Of a stretch of 37,688 nt of DNA, positions 11,540 through 19,755 are shown piece after piece. Below the pieces are notes generated by a model that saw nothing but the letters and a program-made list of their open reading frames with translations, had not been told where the DNA came from and searched no databases. A program made the translations under genes and the position numbers. Numbering within the stretch: position 1 is the first letter of the stretch; every line of letters begins with the position of its first letter. This DNA comes from Flavobacteriales bacterium (lineage in GTDB: Bacteria > Bacteroidota > Bacteroidia > Flavobacteriales_D > Sanyastnellaceae), in contig JADHLY010000017.1 in NCBI GenBank assembly GCA_016780385.1, positions 1-37,688 on the forward strand. The letters are read 5' to 3'.

Positions 11540-11586
11540 GGATTTAGGAAATCGCCACTCGCAGCCACTTCGGTACTTTGCAGTCG

Positions 11587-12006
11587 ATGCCCGGATTAAA
11601 CAAAGTCATGCTCATTGGCCACCTCGGCAAGGCCCCTGCCTTGCGGTGGCTCGAAAGTGGGCAGGCCATGTGCAAGTTGTCTTTGGCCACCTCTGAGCGT
11701 TACAAAGACAAGGCGGGCCATCCTCACGAGCGCACCGAATGGCACCAAGTGGTGCTTTGGAGGGAGCTGGCGGAATTGGCCGACCAATACCTGACCAAGG
11801 GCCAGAAGGTGTACATCGAAGGCCGCTTGCGCACACGGACCTGGCAGGACGCCCAGGGCACTGAGCACCGGTCGACCGAAATTGTCGCCGATCGCATGGA
11901 AATGCTGTCCCCTCGCGGGTTTTCAGAGGCCGACACCACCCGTGACGCGCCGGCCGAGAAAAGTCCGGGTCCCATCCCCATGGACACATCTTCCCTGCCC
12001 TTCTGA
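11587..12006 (+). CDS. ssb: Single-stranded DNA-binding protein
   Basis: A 139-residue SSB with one OB fold (about residues 1-105): NKVMLIGHLGKAPALRW, the TEWHQVVLW core strand and KGQKVYIEGRLRTRTW. It coats ssDNA in replication and repair. The short C-terminal linker ends in MDTSSLPF; the usual partner-binding tip is several acidic residues followed by a Pro-Phe, so here the Leu-Pro-Phe end is kept but only one Asp precedes it. The ATG at 11587 gives the family start; a TTG nine bases upstream is less likely. The gene stops 2 bases before gldE, in the mutY-ssb-gldE order known from gliding Bacteroidota. Confidence 0.93.
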   Translation: MPGLNKVMLIGHLGKAPALRWLESGQAMCKLSLATSERYKDKAGHPHERTEWHQVVLWRELAELADQYLTKGQKVYIEGRLRTRTWQDAQGTEHRSTEIVADRMEMLSPRGFSEADTTRDAPAEKSPGPIPMDTSSLPF

Positions 12007-12008
12007 CC

Positions 12009-13916
12009 ATGACTGACCTCATGGGCATCCACCTCTGGATTGCGGCGGTGAGTTCTCTGCTCCTACTGCTGGCCAGTGCCTTCATCTCAGGCAGTGAAAT
12101 CGCTTTCTTTTCGCTGGACCCTCAGGACAGGCAGACTTTGGAAGAGGCCGAAGACCAACCTTCCAAGCTGGTGCTTCAGTTGCTCAACTCACCTGACACC
12201 GAGCGGGGTGCCCGGCAGTTGCTGGCGACCATTTTGGTCCTCAACAACACGGTTAACATCCTCATCATTCTGCTTTCGACGGTGCTCATGCAGCACTGGT
12301 TGACGGCCCTGCCCCCACTTGTGGGCACCATCCTGCACGTATTCGGGGTGACCTTTTTGATCGTACTGTTCGGCGAAGTATTGCCCAAAGTCTACGCCAA
12401 CCGCAATCCCCTCACCTTGGCCCGACGGATGGCCCGCACACTCTCGTGGTCCAAGGGCATACTGCGGCCCGTATGGCAACCGCTCAATGCCATGGCCACC
12501 TGGCTCGCCCCCCGCGCGGATGCCGCACCTGAACTTTCGGTAGAGGACCTGGAGCACGCCGTGAATGTGACGGACTCCGAAGAGCGATCGGAGGAGGAGA
12601 ACCGCATCCTCAGCGGCATTGTCAATTTTGGTTCCAAGGATGTCAAACAAATCATGCGGCCGCGCACCGACGTGACCTCCTTTGCGCACGACCTCGCCTG
12701 GCCCGAGCTCAAGAGCGCGATGGCCGAATCCGGTTTCAGCAGGGTTCCGATTTACGAAGACGGCCTGGACAACATCAAAGGCATCCTGTATGCCAAGGAC
12801 CTGTTGGCCCACCGCAATGCCGAAACGTTTGATTGGAACTCCCTGCTTCGCCCCCCCTTCTTCGTTCCGGAAAATCGGATGATCGACGACCTGCTGCGGG
12901 ACTTCCAAGCCATGAAGGTCCACCTCGCTGTGGTCGTCGACGAATACGGCGGCACCAGTGGCATCATCACCCTTGAGGATGTCATTGAGGAAATCGTGGG
13001 CGACATCTCGGATGAATTTGACGATGAGGACGTGCTGTACTCCCGCATCGATGAGCGCACCGTGGTCTTCCAGGGCAAGACCGCCCTTGTGGATGCCTAC
13101 CGGATTCTGGACATCGACGGGTCGGCATTTGAAGCCGCCAAAGGAGAGAGCGACACCCTCGGCGGATTTGTAGTCGAACAATTGGCCCGCCTTCCCAAAC
13201 CTGGCGAGTCTCTGATGTTTGAAGGGATACAATTGGTGGCCGAAGCCGCTGACCGCAGGAGGGTGCTGCAGGTCAAAGTCACCCTTGCCGCGGACAATGA
13301 GGCCACCCCACCACCAGGTCCACCTTCCCAAAAACGCCGACCAGACGGACTCGGCACATGGGCCCTCATCTTGGCCGCTGCGCTCACGCTGGGAACGGGG
13401 TGCCGCGATGCCGAACCGGTGCCGCGGCCACCTGGCTATTTCCGCATTGCCCTGCACGACACCACCTTCCGCCAAGTCGAATTGCCTTGCCCGATGACTG
13501 TGGGGGTTTCGCGCGCTGCAGTGTTGGAACCCATCCGAGACTTTGCACCGGACAGCTGCTGGTTCAACCTTGCCTACCCCCAATACAAAGCGCGGATCCA
13601 TTGCACCTACGCGGGCGGGGTCAACCTCGCTCCCGTCGTGGAAGACGCCTTCAAACTGGCCTACGAGCACGAAATCAAAGCGGACGCCATCGAAGTGCGC
13701 CGCAGGGATTACGAGGCGGGGGGAACCGCCATCACGTGGCGAATTGCGGGCAATGCAGCGAGCCCTTTGCAATTCCTGAGTACCAATGGCTCCGATCAAT
13801 TCTTGCGCGGCGCATTGTACTTCGAAGTCCGTCCCAATGGCGATTCACTGCAGCCCGTAGTCGCCCGCTTGGATGCCGACATCGAATACCTCATGGCAAA
13901 CCTGACGTGGCAGTGA
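12009..13916 (+). CDS. gldE: GldE-GldD fusion: CNNM/CorC membrane protein joined to gliding-motility lipoprotein GldD
   Basis: A single 635-residue frame containing two proteins normally encoded by adjacent genes. Residues 1-200 are a DUF21/CNNM membrane domain, about 210-340 a CBS pair ending in VVDEYGGTSGI and EEIVGDISDE, and 350-425 a CorC_HlyC domain: together GldE. After a proline-rich linker and QKRR comes a hydrophobic stretch (449-464) ending LGTGC (Cys465), then a full GldD domain with FNLAYPQYKARIHCTY, YEHEIKADAI, GNAASPLQF and a terminal TW. GldD and GldE are required for gliding and type IX secretion in Flavobacterium johnsoniae. No in-frame ATG or plausible GTG/TTG sits just before the hydrophobic stretch. 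The stop overlaps the coaX GTG start. A sequencing indel cannot be fully excluded. Confidence 0.9.
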   Translation: MTDLMGIHLWIAAVSSLLLLLASAFISGSEIAFFSLDPQDRQTLEEAEDQPSKLVLQLLNSPDTERGARQLLATILVLNNTVNILIILLSTVLMQHWLTALPPLVGTILHVFGVTFLIVLFGEVLPKVYANRNPLTLARRMARTLSWSKGILRPVWQPLNAMATWLAPRADAAPELSVEDLEHAVNVTDSEERSEEENRILSGIVNFGSKDVKQIMRPRTDVTSFAHDLAWPELKSAMAESGFSRVPIYEDGLDNIKGILYAKDLLAHRNAETFDWNSLLRPPFFVPENRMIDDLLRDFQAMKVHLAVVVDEYGGTSGIITLEDVIEEIVGDISDEFDDEDVLYSRIDERTVVFQGKTALVDAYRILDIDGSAFEAAKGESDTLGGFVVEQLARLPKPGESLMFEGIQLVAEAADRRRVLQVKVTLAADNEATPPPGPPSQKRRPDGLGTWALILAAALTLGTGCRDAEPVPRPPGYFRIALHDTTFRQVELPCPMTVGVSRAAVLEPIRDFAPDSCWFNLAYPQYKARIHCTYAGGVNLAPVVEDAFKLAYEHEIKADAIEVRRRDYEAGGTAITWRIAGNAASPLQFLSTNGSDQFLRGALYFEVRPNGDSLQPVVARLDADIEYLMANLTWQ

Positions 13917-14704
13917 AGCTCGTATTGGACCCAGGGGGAACTCGGCTCAAATTTGGAACGGTCCGCAACGGACGGCTCGAGACGGTGCACAGCGTGGAGT
14001 GGTCGGGATTGCAATCCGGTGCCTTTGAACCCGCAGCGGTGGTCCAAGAAAACGAGAACACAGCCTCCTCAGGTGCCCTTGAGGTCCACGTGCTCAACCG
14101 TCCCGCACCTCCCGCCGCGGGCGAAGAATGGCTCCAAGTTTTTTGTCGGGACTGGGGCGAACCCGAAGCCTTGTGCACCGTGATTGACCCCTTGCGCAAT
14201 CCGGGATTCGACATTGCCTACACCTCGGGGCACCCTGGCAGTGACCGCATAGCCGCCGCAGTGGCTTGCCAGCGCAAAGACCCAGGAGGGAGCTTCATCA
14301 TCGTGGACGCCGGCACCTGCATTACGGTCGACCTCTTGTCGCCAGGGTCATGGCGAGGCGGCGCCATCATGCCCGGACTCCAAATGCAAGCCGCCGCCAT
14401 GAAGCAAGCAGGCCTGCCCGTGCTTCAACCGGACGACCAGCACCATTGGCCCTTCACTGAAGGCCCAGAAGGTGCACTTGGCCGCAACACTTTGGATGCC
14501 ATTGCTGCTGGCATACCATGGGCCACCCGGAAAGGCGTTGAAGCCATTGCCCACGCCTACAAGAACATAGACCCCTGCGCACAGCTGGTATTGACTGGCG
14601 GTGATGCCCATCATTTTGATGGTGTAGGGGGATGGCAGACTTTCGCAATCCCAAACCTGGTTCTCCAGGGATGCGCCATGCTGCTGAACGAGCACACCAC
14701 ATGA
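13913..14704 (+). CDS. coaX: Type III pantothenate kinase
   Basis: A 263-residue ASKHA-fold kinase for the first step of coenzyme A synthesis. Catalytic acidic residues lie in the N-terminal LDPGGTRLKFG (family DxGNT, with Gly replacing the Asn), in GSDRIAAAVA and in DAGTCITVD; the GGAIMPGLQMQ motif is present and VLTGGDA is the C-terminal phosphate motif. The GTG at 13913 is chosen because the first beta strand begins there; it overlaps the stop of gldE-gldD (GTGA), pointing to translational coupling. The frame is open far upstream but that extension overlaps gldD and does not resemble CoaX. The stop overlaps the start of the next gene as ATGA. Confidence 0.93.
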   Translation: MKLVLDPGGTRLKFGTVRNGRLETVHSVEWSGLQSGAFEPAAVVQENENTASSGALEVHVLNRPAPPAAGEEWLQVFCRDWGEPEALCTVIDPLRNPGFDIAYTSGHPGSDRIAAAVACQRKDPGGSFIIVDAGTCITVDLLSPGSWRGGAIMPGLQMQAAAMKQAGLPVLQPDDQHHWPFTEGPEGALGRNTLDAIAAGIPWATRKGVEAIAHAYKNIDPCAQLVLTGGDAHHFDGVGGWQTFAIPNLVLQGCAMLLNEHTT

Positions 14705-16116
14705 CCATACCGTCTTCTATACGTATTCTGTCACTCGGCGCCGTCTTGACCGCATTGTTCGGCCTGTTGGACGCCGTGCAAGGCCAGTCTACCTACTCGC
14801 CTTATTCGCGGTTCGGACTGGGCAAACTTCACTCTGGTGCAGGCGCTGCGCAGATGGGCATGGGCCAAATGGGGGCGGCATGGACGGACCGCAGCCATTT
14901 GAATACCATCAACCCCGCTGCCGCAGCCTTTCTGACCCGCACCACGTTTGCAGGTGGATTCGATGTGAGGACGGAGCGGATCATGGAGGGCGATTCTGCC
15001 ACGCAAGGCGAACTCGGCGGCCTTACACAAATCGCCTTCGCCATGAAGCGTGCAGGCGGAAAATCCGCCATCACCTTCGGCCTTCAGCCCCGCAGCCAAG
15101 CGGGATACGATGTCTCTCAGGTCCTCGTGGACCCGGTTGCTGACAACTATGAAATTCGCTATTCCGGAACCGGCGGATTGTCCCAAGCCTACATCGGATA
15201 CGCACGCCGGTGGGAGGGATACACGTGGCGGAAGTTCACGGATGGTGACGGCACTGTGACCGACAGCTCGAGGATCATCACCAGCGGGACCGCCTTTGGC
15301 GCGCGGTTTGATCAGGTGTTTGGCAGCATGGTGCGGTCCCGGAACATCGATGTCGCCAATCCCATCTATGTGGACACCCGGGTGCAAACCGATGAAACCC
15401 ATCGGAGCGCTGGCGTCACCTTGGGCTTGGTCCGTGAGCAGTTGATCTCGGCCAAATTTGACAAGGACAAGAAGCTCGTTTCCAGCGCGCTCCTGCGCAT
15501 TGGTGGTGTGGCTCAACTCGGGCGTCAACACACAGTGGACCGGATGACGCGTTGGGCCTCTTGGCAAACCCTCTCAACCGGCCCAATTGAAGTGGACTCA
15601 GTCCATGCAACAGAAGAGCTATACTCGCTCGGGTTGCCGCTCTCACTCTCGTTGGGCGCAGAATTGGAGTACAACAGCCGCGCTGGGGCGCGCTGGCGCA
15701 TTGGGACAGAATGGCGCAACACCCGCTGGAGCAACTTGCCGACGGACATGCTCGACCCCGGAGTAAGTTGGGCGGATGATGCCGGCTTCTCGGCCGGCGC
15801 TTCTCTCACCCCTCGGGGGCTGGACAATGCCCGCAATGGTATCGAACGCGCCACATACAGCGTGGGATACAGCACACAGAGCGGTTATGTCCTCATTGAT
15901 GCCGGTCCTGTAGCGTCATCGGTATGGAGCTTGGGTTGGTCCCAGCCCATGTTGGGTTCGCGCTCAGGCTCCAGCATCAACCTCGCCCTGACCTGGCAAA
16001 ACACCTCGACAGGCTCCGATGCGTTGTTGACCGAAAAAGGCTTCGGGGCCATGGTGGGACTCACCCTCCACCCGTTCTTCAAAAACCAGTGGCTCGTACC
16101 ACGTAAATACGATTGA
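14701..16116 (+). CDS. Outer-membrane beta-barrel protein (FadL/PorV-like fold, function unknown)
   Basis: A 471-residue exported protein. A signal peptide occupies roughly residues 1-29 (hydrophobic SLGAVLTALFGLL, probable cleavage after VQGQ), followed by STYSPYSRFGLGKL and INPAAAAF, a pattern typical of conserved Bacteroidota outer-membrane proteins. The remainder shows alternating polar/hydrophobic strands ending in an aromatic strand, consistent with a barrel. The ATG at 14701 overlaps the coaX stop. No substrate can be named. Its place beside coaX and upstream of TPR and LptC-like genes matches the envelope-biogenesis order of Flavobacteriia. Confidence 0.8.
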   Translation: MTIPSSIRILSLGAVLTALFGLLDAVQGQSTYSPYSRFGLGKLHSGAGAAQMGMGQMGAAWTDRSHLNTINPAAAAFLTRTTFAGGFDVRTERIMEGDSATQGELGGLTQIAFAMKRAGGKSAITFGLQPRSQAGYDVSQVLVDPVADNYEIRYSGTGGLSQAYIGYARRWEGYTWRKFTDGDGTVTDSSRIITSGTAFGARFDQVFGSMVRSRNIDVANPIYVDTRVQTDETHRSAGVTLGLVREQLISAKFDKDKKLVSSALLRIGGVAQLGRQHTVDRMTRWASWQTLSTGPIEVDSVHATEELYSLGLPLSLSLGAELEYNSRAGARWRIGTEWRNTRWSNLPTDMLDPGVSWADDAGFSAGASLTPRGLDNARNGIERATYSVGYSTQSGYVLIDAGPVASSVWSLGWSQPMLGSRSGSSINLALTWQNTSTGSDALLTEKGFGAMVGLTLHPFFKNQWLVPRKYD

Positions 16117-16129
16117 GGACGCCGACGGA

Positions 16130-16157
16130 TTTGCATCCTTGAGTTCCGCTATTTTAG
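16130..16157 (+). promoter_or_regulatory. Candidate Bacteroidota promoter upstream of the TPR gene
   Basis: TTTG at 16130-16133 and TATTTTAG at 16150-16157 resemble -33 (TTG) and -7 (TAnnTTTG) elements with 16 bases between them, one short of the usual range and with one mismatch in the -7. They sit about 70 bases before the ATG at 16225, in the only sizeable gap (108 bases) of this gene run, so an internal promoter here would make sense. Confidence 0.35.
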
Positions 16158-16224
16158 CCGGCCCAGAGCGAGCCAAGTGGTTTTGGCCCGGTCCTTGATT
16201 GTACAGACCGAATAAGTTGATCAG

Positions 16225-17613
16225 ATGACCCGATTCTCCCTCCTCACGAGCAGCCTTTGTGCAGCATTCCTGGTGACCGCGACGCTGTCCGTCTCAGCAC
16301 AGGATGAAAGCAAGTTCGGTGACACGCCTGAGCAGCAGGCCGCCTGCAAGGAAAACCTGAGCTTGTACGAGACCTATTACAAGCAGAAGAATTACGACGA
16401 TGCCTACCCCTTCTGGAGAAAGGCATGTTCTGTATGTCCTCCGAAGGTGTCGCAGAACATGTACATCAAGGGCGTCAATTTGCTGAAGCGTCAGATGAAA
16501 GCCGCGATCAAGGCCAAGGACAATGCCCGCGCTGTGGCATTGCGCGACAGCGTATTCATGTACTACGACCTGCGGATCGAGCACTTCCCCAGCACCTCCA
16601 AAAAGCCCGACAACGGCTGTGAGATTCTCGCTCGGAAAGCCTTGGACTGGACCAGCCTCAACAAACGGGAGGCCCTCGAGTCACGCCCCATGTTTGAGGA
16701 AGCCATCACCTGCTTGGAAGACCGCAGTGATGCGGCCGTTTTGAACGGGTACTATGGCATTTTGGTCCAGGCGTTGAATGAGGCCGAGGAGGCTGAAGCC
16801 AAGGAGGTGGCCATTGGCGACTTGCTCAATGAATACCTCCGCCTGAGCGACTTCATCGAAGCAGGACGCCAGCGCGAAGTCGCGGCAGAGGACAGCGCCG
16901 GTGCCGCCAAGTATTTCACCACGCAGAAAAACCTCGACGAGATCTTCGTTCAAGTGGCCAATTGCGACGACATGGTGCCTGTGCTGACCAAGAAAATCGA
17001 GGCGGCTCCAGACGACATTGACATCAAGAAAAAGACGCTGCGCCTGCTCAATGAAAAGGGGTGCACGGACAACGACATCTTCCTTCCTGTGGCTGAGGCG
17101 GTGTACGCGGTGGACAAGAACGCAGATGCGGCCTACTCCATCGGCATTCAGCTGTCCAAGAAAGGCGATTACGGTGCCGCTCTTCCTTATTTCGAGGAGT
17201 CCGTGGACCTCTGCACGGACTGTCCAAAGTTGGCCCGCAACCTGATGAAAGCAGGCCAGGTCGCCAAGAACGCCGGACAGGTGTCCAAGTGTATCCGTTA
17301 TGCCCGGAGGGCAGCCAAGGCCGACCCCGGCAACGGTGAGCCTTACCTGTTGATCGGTGATGCTGTCGCATCCATGTTCAGCGCATGCTCAGACAGCCCG
17401 TTGGGCGGACGCGAGGTGTACTGGTTGGCCACGGACTACTACCAACGCGCCAAGGCAGTCGACAGCAATGTTGCATCCAAGGCCAACACGAAGATTTCAC
17501 AGGTCAAGAAGTCCTACCCCACCATCGACGACCTCTTTACTTACGGCATCAACGAAGGCAAAGAGATTACCGTCAAGTGTGTCGGTGAGACCACCAAGGC
17601 GCGCAAGCCCTGA
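16225..17613 (+). CDS. Exported tetratricopeptide-repeat protein
   Basis: A 462-residue protein with a clear signal peptide (hydrophobic core LLTSSLCAAFLVTATL, cleavage near SVSAQ) and helical TPR-type repeats. Repeats are visible in YKQKNYDDAYPFWRKAC, KKGDYGAALPYFEESVDLC and AGQVSKCIRYARRAAKADP. Cysteines recur in the repeats (CSVCPP, CTDCP), which may form disulphides in the periplasm. No enzyme motif is visible. It is followed by the LptC-like gene with a TGATG stop/start overlap. An adjacent TPR/LptC pair is common in Flavobacteriia; a scaffold role at the envelope is inference. Confidence 0.82.
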   Translation: MTRFSLLTSSLCAAFLVTATLSVSAQDESKFGDTPEQQAACKENLSLYETYYKQKNYDDAYPFWRKACSVCPPKVSQNMYIKGVNLLKRQMKAAIKAKDNARAVALRDSVFMYYDLRIEHFPSTSKKPDNGCEILARKALDWTSLNKREALESRPMFEEAITCLEDRSDAAVLNGYYGILVQALNEAEEAEAKEVAIGDLLNEYLRLSDFIEAGRQREVAAEDSAGAAKYFTTQKNLDEIFVQVANCDDMVPVLTKKIEAAPDDIDIKKKTLRLLNEKGCTDNDIFLPVAEAVYAVDKNADAAYSIGIQLSKKGDYGAALPYFEESVDLCTDCPKLARNLMKAGQVAKNAGQVSKCIRYARRAAKADPGNGEPYLLIGDAVASMFSACSDSPLGGREVYWLATDYYQRAKAVDSNVASKANTKISQVKKSYPTIDDLFTYGINEGKEITVKCVGETTKARKP

Positions 17614-18170
17614 TGGACTGGAACCGATTTTGGGGTGTATTGCTCGGTGCGGTGTTGCTGTGCTCCACCAGCTGCCAGAATGACCTCGAAACGGTGGCTG
17701 ACTTTGAAACGCTGGGCGGGCCATCGCAGGTCCTGCAAGGAGCGGCCCTTGAGTACAGCGATGATGGACAGCTTACGCACCGGCTGAACGCCCAGCACAT
17801 GTCCCGCTCATCGGAAGACCCCCCCATCTGGGAAGTCACCGATGGCTTCACGCTCGAAGTCATCGACGACACCGGTGGTGTGGAAGCCTTGTTGGGTGCC
17901 CAGCGCGGTTCGTTTGCAGAGGAGACCCGGTATTTGGAGGCCAGGGGCGGAGTGGTCCTGCGCGGGGCCAACCAGGACACACTGCTCACTGAATTGCTCT
18001 ATTGGAGTGCCGATAGCGACAGGGTGCACACGACCGCACCCGTCGAGGTGCGCACGCCAGAAGGGACGCTGTACGGACGCGGCCTCGAATCCGACGCGCG
18101 CTTTCAGCGCTATTCCATCCTCGAGCCTACCGGTACTTTTCTGGTCGACACCACAACCTCCACCCCATGA
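17613..18170 (+). CDS. lptC: LptC-like lipopolysaccharide-export periplasmic protein
   Basis: A 185-residue predicted lipoprotein (hydrophobic GVLLGAVLLC, lipobox STSC) with the LptC/OstA beta-jellyroll pattern: a strand series around EYSDDGQLTHRLNAQHM, then ARGGVVLRGANQDTLLTELLYW, and a closing YSILEPTGTFL. LptC bridges the inner-membrane LptBFG transporter to LptA in moving LPS across the periplasm. The Bacteroidota form is usually a lipoprotein, unlike the membrane-anchored E. coli protein. It starts at an ATG overlapping the TPR gene stop and ends in an ATGA overlap with the next small gene, so translation is probably coupled. Confidence 0.82.
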   Translation: MDWNRFWGVLLGAVLLCSTSCQNDLETVADFETLGGPSQVLQGAALEYSDDGQLTHRLNAQHMSRSSEDPPIWEVTDGFTLEVIDDTGGVEALLGAQRGSFAEETRYLEARGGVVLRGANQDTLLTELLYWSADSDRVHTTAPVEVRTPEGTLYGRGLESDARFQRYSILEPTGTFLVDTTTSTP

Positions 18171-18441: not shown

Positions 18442-19755
18442 ATGGATCCCGACCCTGCGAATTTATTTCTCTTGCTTGCCGCCCTTCTGGCGTCGGCTTT
18501 TTTTTCGGGCATGGAAATCGCGTTTGTTTCGGCAAACCGACTGCAGGCTGAGCTGGACCGCAACCAAGGAGGCTGGGCCGGCCGGTTGGTGGAACACCTG
18601 CTGAGAAAGCCCGAGCGGTTCATCGCCTCCATGTTGGTGGGCAACAACCTCGCCTTGGTCATTTTCGGCCTCGAATCCGGCACGCTCATCGCCCAGCTTC
18701 TGTTCGACGTGGGAGATTGGGAGTCCGCCAACCACCCCTTGGCCGCGCTCGCCGCCCAGACCGGCATTGCCACTGTGGTTGTGCTCGTCACCGCGGAATT
18801 CCTCCCCAAGAGCTTCTTTCATGCTGCCCCCAACCGATGGCTTCGGTTCTTCTCGGTGCCCCTTGTGGTTATCTATTACCTGCTCTGGCCGCTGGCCATG
18901 GTGGTCCTATCCTTGAGCCGGCTATTTCTTCGCAAACAAGGCGAGGAAGGGCAAGAGGACAACCTTAGTGCCGTGGACCTTGACGACTTCGTTCGTAGCT
19001 TGAATGAAAGGATGGTTTCCGAGGAAGATTCATCCTTGGACAACGAACTCCAAATCCTGCAGAACGCATTGGATTTCTCCAACCTCAAGGCCCGCGACTG
19101 TCTGGTGCCCCGCAACGAAATTGTGGCGCTGGATACCAACGCTTCCCTCGAGGAACTGGACCGCTGCTTCACCGACACGGGCCTGAGCAAGGTGGTCATC
19201 TATCGGAATACCATTGACCACGTCATTGGCTATGTGCACTCAAAAGACTTGCTGCGGCGCGCCGAAGAGGACGGCGACTCGGTGGGGGCTGGACTGGCCC
19301 GCTATCTGCACCCCACCATCATCGTGCCTGAGCCGATGGGCGCCCAGGACATTTTGGCAGAGTTCATCCGCAGAAAAAGGCACCTCGCAGTGGTGGTAGA
19401 TGAGTATGGAGGCACCTCGGGCATCCTCACCATGGAAGACATTGTCGAGGAATTGATCGGGGACATCGAGGACGAACACGACACGGAGGCCCTGGTGGAA
19501 ATGGAGCTGGGCGAAGGCCATTACAGGTTTAGCGCCCGTCATGAAGTCGATGATCTCAACGAACGATACAACCTACAACTCCCTGAAAACGAGTCGTATG
19601 AAACCCTAGGAGGCCTGGTGCTCCAGCACATGGAAGCCATTCCAGAGGAAGGCCAGCGATTGGAATTGGATGGACTTTCCATCCTTGTCACCCGCGTCGA
19701 TGGTGCGCGGATTGTCCTGATTGAAGTCTTGAGAAAAGAGCCTGAAGAGGGCTGA
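18442..19755 (+). CDS. CNNM/CorC-family membrane protein with CBS pair (hemolysin-like)
   Basis: A 437-residue protein with a DUF21/CNNM membrane domain at residues 1-190 (opening LLLAALLASAFFSGMEIAF), a CBS pair at about 215-350 ending VVDEYGGTSGI and EELIGDIEDE, and a CorC_HlyC domain at about 355-432. CNNM/CorC proteins are linked to magnesium or other divalent-cation handling in the inner membrane; the substrate here is not shown by the sequence. It is a paralogue of the GldE half at 12009, sharing all domains but lacking the GldD extension. A run of eight T residues lies in its codons 19-22. The ppiD-like gene follows. Confidence 0.93.
   Translation: MDPDPANLFLLLAALLASAFFSGMEIAFVSANRLQAELDRNQGGWAGRLVEHLLRKPERFIASMLVGNNLALVIFGLESGTLIAQLLFDVGDWESANHPLAALAAQTGIATVVVLVTAEFLPKSFFHAAPNRWLRFFSVPLVVIYYLLWPLAMVVLSLSRLFLRKQGEEGQEDNLSAVDLDDFVRSLNERMVSEEDSSLDNELQILQNALDFSNLKARDCLVPRNEIVALDTNASLEELDRCFTDTGLSKVVIYRNTIDHVIGYVHSKDLLRRAEEDGDSVGAGLARYLHPTIIVPEPMGAQDILAEFIRRKRHLAVVVDEYGGTSGILTMEDIVEELIGDIEDEHDTEALVEMELGEGHYRFSARHEVDDLNERYNLQLPENESYETLGGLVLQHMEAIPEEGQRLELDGLSILVTRVDGARIVLIEVLRKEPEEG

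Follow-up and report, generated by a model that had tools for sequence, protein, structure and literature searches.

Gliding requires GldD, to which GldE is tied, and a locus at which the two share one reading frame raises the question of what the cell makes from that frame, one protein or two. The window analysed here, a stretch of 37,688 nucleotides of contig JADHLY010000017.1 from a Flavobacteriales bacterium (GCA_016780385.1), contains such a frame, which is laid out with its immediate neighbours as follows.

11578..12006, + strand: ssb, upstream, part of a conserved mutY-ssb-gldE-gldD order
12009..13916, + strand: fused gldE-gldD open reading frame, ATG start, 635 amino acids plus stop, no internal stop
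12057..13286, + strand: GldE part, residues 17–426 (TIGR03520; Pfam CNNM, CBS and CorC_HlyC)
13287..13352, + strand: variable linker, residues 427–448, containing QKRR (from the column list of the genus alignment; low confidence in the structural model)
13353..13400, + strand: hydrophobic segment of an internal lipoprotein-type signal peptide, residues 449–464
13389..13403, + strand: lipobox LGTGC, residues 461–465 (Cys465 codon at 13401–13403)
13404..13913, + strand: mature GldD part, residues 466–635 (PF25593 at 469–634; predicted PsbP-like fold)
13913..14704, + strand: coaX (type III pantothenate kinase), downstream, its likely GTG start overlapping the TGA of the fusion as GTGA

The original prediction of a single frame holding a full GldE and a full GldD is borne out by the family models. 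The NCBIfam model of GldE, TIGR03520, matches residues 17–426 at 501.9 bits (curated cut-off 376.05; model positions 2–407 of 408) and is thus above cut-off across the whole model, and that of GldD, TIGR03512, matches residues 459–635 at 140.7 bits (curated cut-off 120; positions 4–182 of 182), with no stop in the frame; the Pfam domains (CNNM, CBS, CorC_HlyC and GldD_lipo) agree. By score, and by the lipobox cysteine that follows a hydrophobic segment, the product belongs to the GldD family as well, except that it lacks an N-terminal signal peptide with a start of its own, the signal peptide being internal. From residue 425 up to 12 residues ahead of Cys465 the sequence contains no in-frame ATG, GTG or TTG. 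The junction had been described as having no ATG and a single GTG, at 13263, within the last CorC strand; both statements hold, the GTG being in frame, but a TTG at 13371 had gone unmentioned, and as it stands only 10 residues ahead of Cys465 it is too close to start a signal peptide. Since the signal peptide is internal and has none of these codons at least 12 residues before the cysteine, we speak of a GldD domain in a fusion and not of a free-standing gldD gene.

Two bases separate the end of ssb from the ATG of the fusion, and this spacing, together with the probable GTGA overlap with coaX, gives the locus the look of a tightly packed operon. mutY, ssb, gldE and gldD are grouped in most of the 69 loci compared. 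The genes that follow (14704–18170 of the window) are envelope genes, encoding a BamG-like protein (172.6 bits, under the cut-off of 250), a TPR protein and LptC; a BamG-like gene lies near the fusion in ten of the 69 loci, all of them among the 11 closest. About 4.5 kb downstream of the fusion, at 18442–19755, is a second CNNM/CorC protein, GldE-like at 213.6 bits against the GldE cut-off of 376, and many genus and family genomes have second CNNM/CorC copies at a comparable distance.

The fusion is conserved within the genus. A stop-free fusion of 634–743 codons, in which the open frame bearing GldD also holds GldE, is present in 14 of 17 genus genomes, the 13 fused proteins other than that of the window having 57–80% protein identity. 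A search of related genomes for the same architecture had been set as a check on the prediction, and this count both answers it in favour of the fusion and rules out the contrary case, in which the close relatives would all have two separate genes. The GldD family was matched in 16 of the 17 genomes. In two of these, G003 and G008, gldE and gldD are separate genes that lie in different frames; the family search of the genus genomes gave no GldD match in G010, whose one CNNM match, at 33% identity, resembles the second CNNM genes found in its relatives. In the genus tree the split G003 is sister to the fused G005, and the split G008 lies inside a 14-genome clade that is otherwise fused (support 100/99), grouped with six fused genomes at 91/95. 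In G008 (L015, 2740–2940) the gldE TGA falls just past a possible gldD ATG, and from its nesting among fused relatives the pair may have been re-split. In the named collection, ten of the 11 loci nearest the window (L038–L048) are fused, the exception being the split L047 from Crocinitomicaceae bacterium TMED114; among the 58 loci L049–L106 the script detected both parts in 56 and a fusion in none.

Fusions also recur outside the genus. When 399 genomes of the order were searched with a fused-protein profile, the only further stop-free full-length match among the matches listed was in G055, from another family; 13 more listed matches were full length with a stop between the parts, and among the listed matches of the GldD search G055 alone, outside the genus, had an open frame above 500. 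Other fusions within the order may exist beyond these matches. In a class sample of 247 genomes, for which completeness of at least 85% was asked, at least 17 genomes besides that of the window, from five families outside the order (f16, f22, f38, f39 and f70) gave stop-free full-length matches, and at least five further genomes matched full length with stops. In six fused proteins, taken one per family from six families besides that of the window, the TIGR03512 match begins at model position 2 or 3, so that they retain the signal region. A 70-row protein tree requires at least nine changes between the fused and split states, the tree being a quick one in which 19 of 66 inner branches have less than 80% support; these changes argue that the fusion arose repeatedly, and judged from the genomes sampled it is recurrent across the class. 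In f16, for instance, G540 and G401, both fused and with identical tree rows, stand among the close unfused relatives G445, G512 and G481, and in G445 and G512 gldE and gldD overlap as ATGA; separate gldE and gldD are adjacent, close or overlapping in most relatives examined. G516 was considered as a GldD without a signal peptide and rejected, as its frame shows an ordinary separate gldD past a stop. Viral contigs scanned with one class-level fused protein yielded no relative, the junction had no phage match, and at E up to 0.001 a search of the viral library matched nothing but a phage lipoprotein.

The junction was compared in 32 fused proteins (14 from the genus, G055 and 17 from the class) and against 108 distinct N-termini parsed from unfused GldD, 83 of which have a cysteine no more than nine residues from a conserved P-(R/K)-P-like motif and 25 of which do not. 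The lipobox cysteine is kept in all 32 fused proteins, and in the alignment of the 14 fused genus proteins Cys465 is the sole invariant column between V422 and P472. A lipobox core motif like that of PROSITE PS51257 is matched by 28 of the 32, including the LGTGC of the window, and fails in three of the 14 fused genus proteins (G004, G006 and G007) and in G618. The predicted resemblance of the junction to a lipoprotein signal peptide is thereby upheld. The Gly at position −3, for which the lipobox had been called weak, is unusual: none of the 83 parsed unfused lipoboxes has Gly there. In the sub-clade of the window (the window and L003–L007, six genomes) this residue is Gly in five genomes and Cys in one; Cys occupies it in three of the 83. 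Linker and signal peptide together measure 26–40 residues in 31 of the 32 fused proteins and 15 in G005, where the last CorC strand is joined almost directly to the signal peptide. Over six pairs, pN/pS was 0.38–1.77 in the linker and 0.28–0.81 in the signal part, both counted on 15–22 codons per pair, and 0.05–0.21 in the GldE and GldD domains. Taken together, the sequences indicate that the lipobox is under constraint in the fused gene.

The 25 unfused GldD without a near cysteine (L142, L156–L176, L178, L186 and L187) all come from genera g3, g4, g8, g9, g17 and g20 of the window's own family, which were heavily sampled, partly because family matches began late, so that 25 in 108 is no frequency. 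These proteins have the GldD domain of the window and presumably the same N-in/C-out anchor but, unlike the window protein, have no near lipobox cysteine and are not joined to GldE; they carry a long hydrophobic segment, in many ending in W, Y or F, and in L165 and L166 a possible LAAC lipobox lies farther upstream. GldD thus appears to have swapped a lipid anchor for a transmembrane anchor within the family. A transmembrane anchor keeps a protein in the inner membrane, and the site at which GldD works is therefore very likely the periplasmic face, beside GldE; the lipid itself may be dispensable for GldD.

Our current reading, which we hold to be probable, is that the window frame encodes a GldE-GldD precursor that is cut at its internal lipobox by signal peptidase II, giving GldE and a lipidated GldD. 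Adjacent gldE and gldD would have been joined in frame to yield one precursor, whose GldE part would insert in the inner membrane and keep its CBS/CorC region on the cytoplasmic side. The signal peptide that would once have stood at the N-terminus of GldD is internal in the fusion and preceded here by positive charge; it would span from cytoplasm to periplasm and carry GldD across. Lgt would attach diacylglycerol to Cys465 and signal peptidase II (LspA) would cut before that residue, leaving a lipidated GldD at the periplasmic face of the inner membrane and a GldE that ends in a short membrane stub. The two proteins would be made in equal numbers and adjacent to each other, and we infer equal steady-state amounts along with the topology, lipidation and cleavage. 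LspA was found in the genome of the window and in 16 of the 17 genus genomes. Lgt was found in 14 of the 17, and had no match in the genome of the window, which is 84% complete. SprA and GldL are present there above their cut-offs, so that a gliding and type IX secretion (T9SS) context exists in the genome, as well as a GldJ-like protein of 588 codons below the cut-off of its model; that model was matched in 16 of the 17 genus genomes, above cut-off in six, and also, below cut-off, in two of 14 control genomes.

The main rival reading leaves GldD uncut: the hydrophobic segment would be a permanent extra transmembrane helix tethering GldD to GldE, whether or not Cys465 was lipidated. The sister genera just described lend this some weight, because their GldD apparently works on a transmembrane anchor, as does the non-canonical lipobox of the window sub-clade; the uncharged run before the cysteine is also longer in fused proteins (13–26 residues in 15 of them) than in unfused lipoproteins (median 13, range 10–19). 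Yet if a tether sufficed, loss of the cysteine would be expected in some fused lineages, as it occurred in unfused ones, and it is kept in all 32. The hydrophobic part of the window protein is moreover weak for a permanent helix: its maximal 19-residue Kyte–Doolittle value is 1.51, within the 1.24–1.88 of 15 fused proteins and the 0.76–2.51 of 74 unfused lipoproteins (median 1.67), whereas the 25 unfused proteins without a near cysteine have 1.53–2.93, mostly above the fused ones with overlapping ranges; and only residues 451–459 of this part are modelled as helix, with low confidence. We therefore regard the uncut fusion as rather unlikely. The original prediction had allowed for both cleavage by signal peptidase II and a lasting tether, and the retained cysteine favours the former without settling the choice. 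Its persistence in every fused protein examined suggests that cutting is wanted; a weaker reading is that, as 83 of the 108 unfused GldD keep it too, the fused lipobox could be simply inherited. Also counting against the precursor are its Gly at −3 and the failing core motifs of some relatives, the more tether-like uncharged run, the missing Lgt match, and the fact that separate genes suffice in G008 and G003 of the same genus.

Alternatively, GldD might be translated separately from a start inside the gldE frame, the fused frame being only nominal. In relatives the two genes are commonly separate and close together or overlapping, and eight of the 32 junctions have an in-frame ATG 12 or more residues ahead of the cysteine (17 in G002 and G011, for example) and 24 lack one; with GTG and TTG included, 23 junctions have a candidate start. 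The remaining nine, the window among them, have none, the frame is open through the linker in all 14 fused genus genomes, and the pN/pS of the signal part is that of a translated segment, although it would be equally so were the segment translated with GldD only. On balance we find an internal start improbable here. As for an assembly or base-calling artefact of one draft genome, the source assembly is indeed 84% complete and in 71 contigs, but the fusion is found in 13 further genomes of the genus and, across six other families, in 18 more; these 31 other fused proteins rule the artefact out, and its likelihood is negligible. Returning to the cleaved precursor, we lean, if only slightly, towards a broader proposal: that Bacteroidia have repeatedly turned gldE-gldD into a polyprotein of a membrane protein and a lipoprotein, cleaved by signal peptidase II at an internal lipobox. 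If so, release would be as much a reason as the lipid for retaining the cysteine, because relatives suggest that GldD can dispense with the latter.

Structure prediction bears on whether the two parts form a complex. An AlphaFold model of the fused chain (mean pLDDT 88.7, pTM 0.44) has both parts confident and residues 430–476 mostly at low confidence, with block pLDDT 37–53 in the linker; given this pTM and linker we claim no interface between GldE and GldD. Of the predicted 1:1 partnership, the ratio of synthesis is fixed by the fusion itself, but the physical complex finds no confident interface in the model. Modelled by itself (window 13401–13913; pLDDT 86.8, pTM 0.80), the GldD domain is predicted to have a PsbP-like fold: its best Foldseek match is PsbP of photosystem II (8z9d_P, E 4.3e-4; 7pi0_P, E 9.3e-4; probability 1.00), with TM-scores by query length of 0.46 (8z9d_P) and 0.49 (7pi0_P), 7.8–10.5 rmsd and 8–10% identity. 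The GldD sequence had no match among solved structures at E up to 1, the GldE sequence matches solved CorC/CNNM structures, and a literature search found no paper naming both GldD and PsbP.

In published work, GldD is listed among gliding-associated lipoproteins (PMC8754138), a gldD mutant of F. psychrophilum has lower secretion of some, not all, T9SS cargo (PMC5682007), and the gldD/gldE paper is cited (PMC10202324). In our searches of the open-licence literature, neither a fusion of GldE with GldD nor cleavage by signal peptidase II at an internal lipobox came up in any report. The repeated fusion is evidence that GldE and GldD are a functional pair, and the exchange of a lipid for a transmembrane anchor in the sister genera suggests the inner membrane as the site of GldD. 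Whether signal peptidase II processes a lipobox inside a multi-pass membrane protein could be tested simply with the fused proteins.

The closest known counterpart is the gliding/T9SS pair of Flavobacterium, GldE (TIGR03520, of the CNNM/CorC family) and GldD (TIGR03512/PF25593), with which the window shares both domains above their cut-offs and the conserved mutY-ssb-gldE-gldD neighbourhood; there gldD and gldE are separate genes, reportedly so in the work of Hunnicutt and McBride from 2001, whereas the window has them in one frame. In general design the fusion resembles FbcH of Bradyrhizobium, the precursor of cytochromes b and c1, which is cut at an internal signal peptide by signal peptidase I. 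In both, an internal signal peptide, cut in FbcH and probably cut here, links a membrane protein to an exported partner, but FbcH yields haem proteins by way of signal peptidase I, whereas the window encodes gliding proteins with a lipobox for signal peptidase II. An atypical lipobox also has a parallel in Ycf48 (PMC8038367), which likewise has a non-canonical residue at −3, there a Cys in an N-terminal lipobox and in the window a Gly in an internal one.
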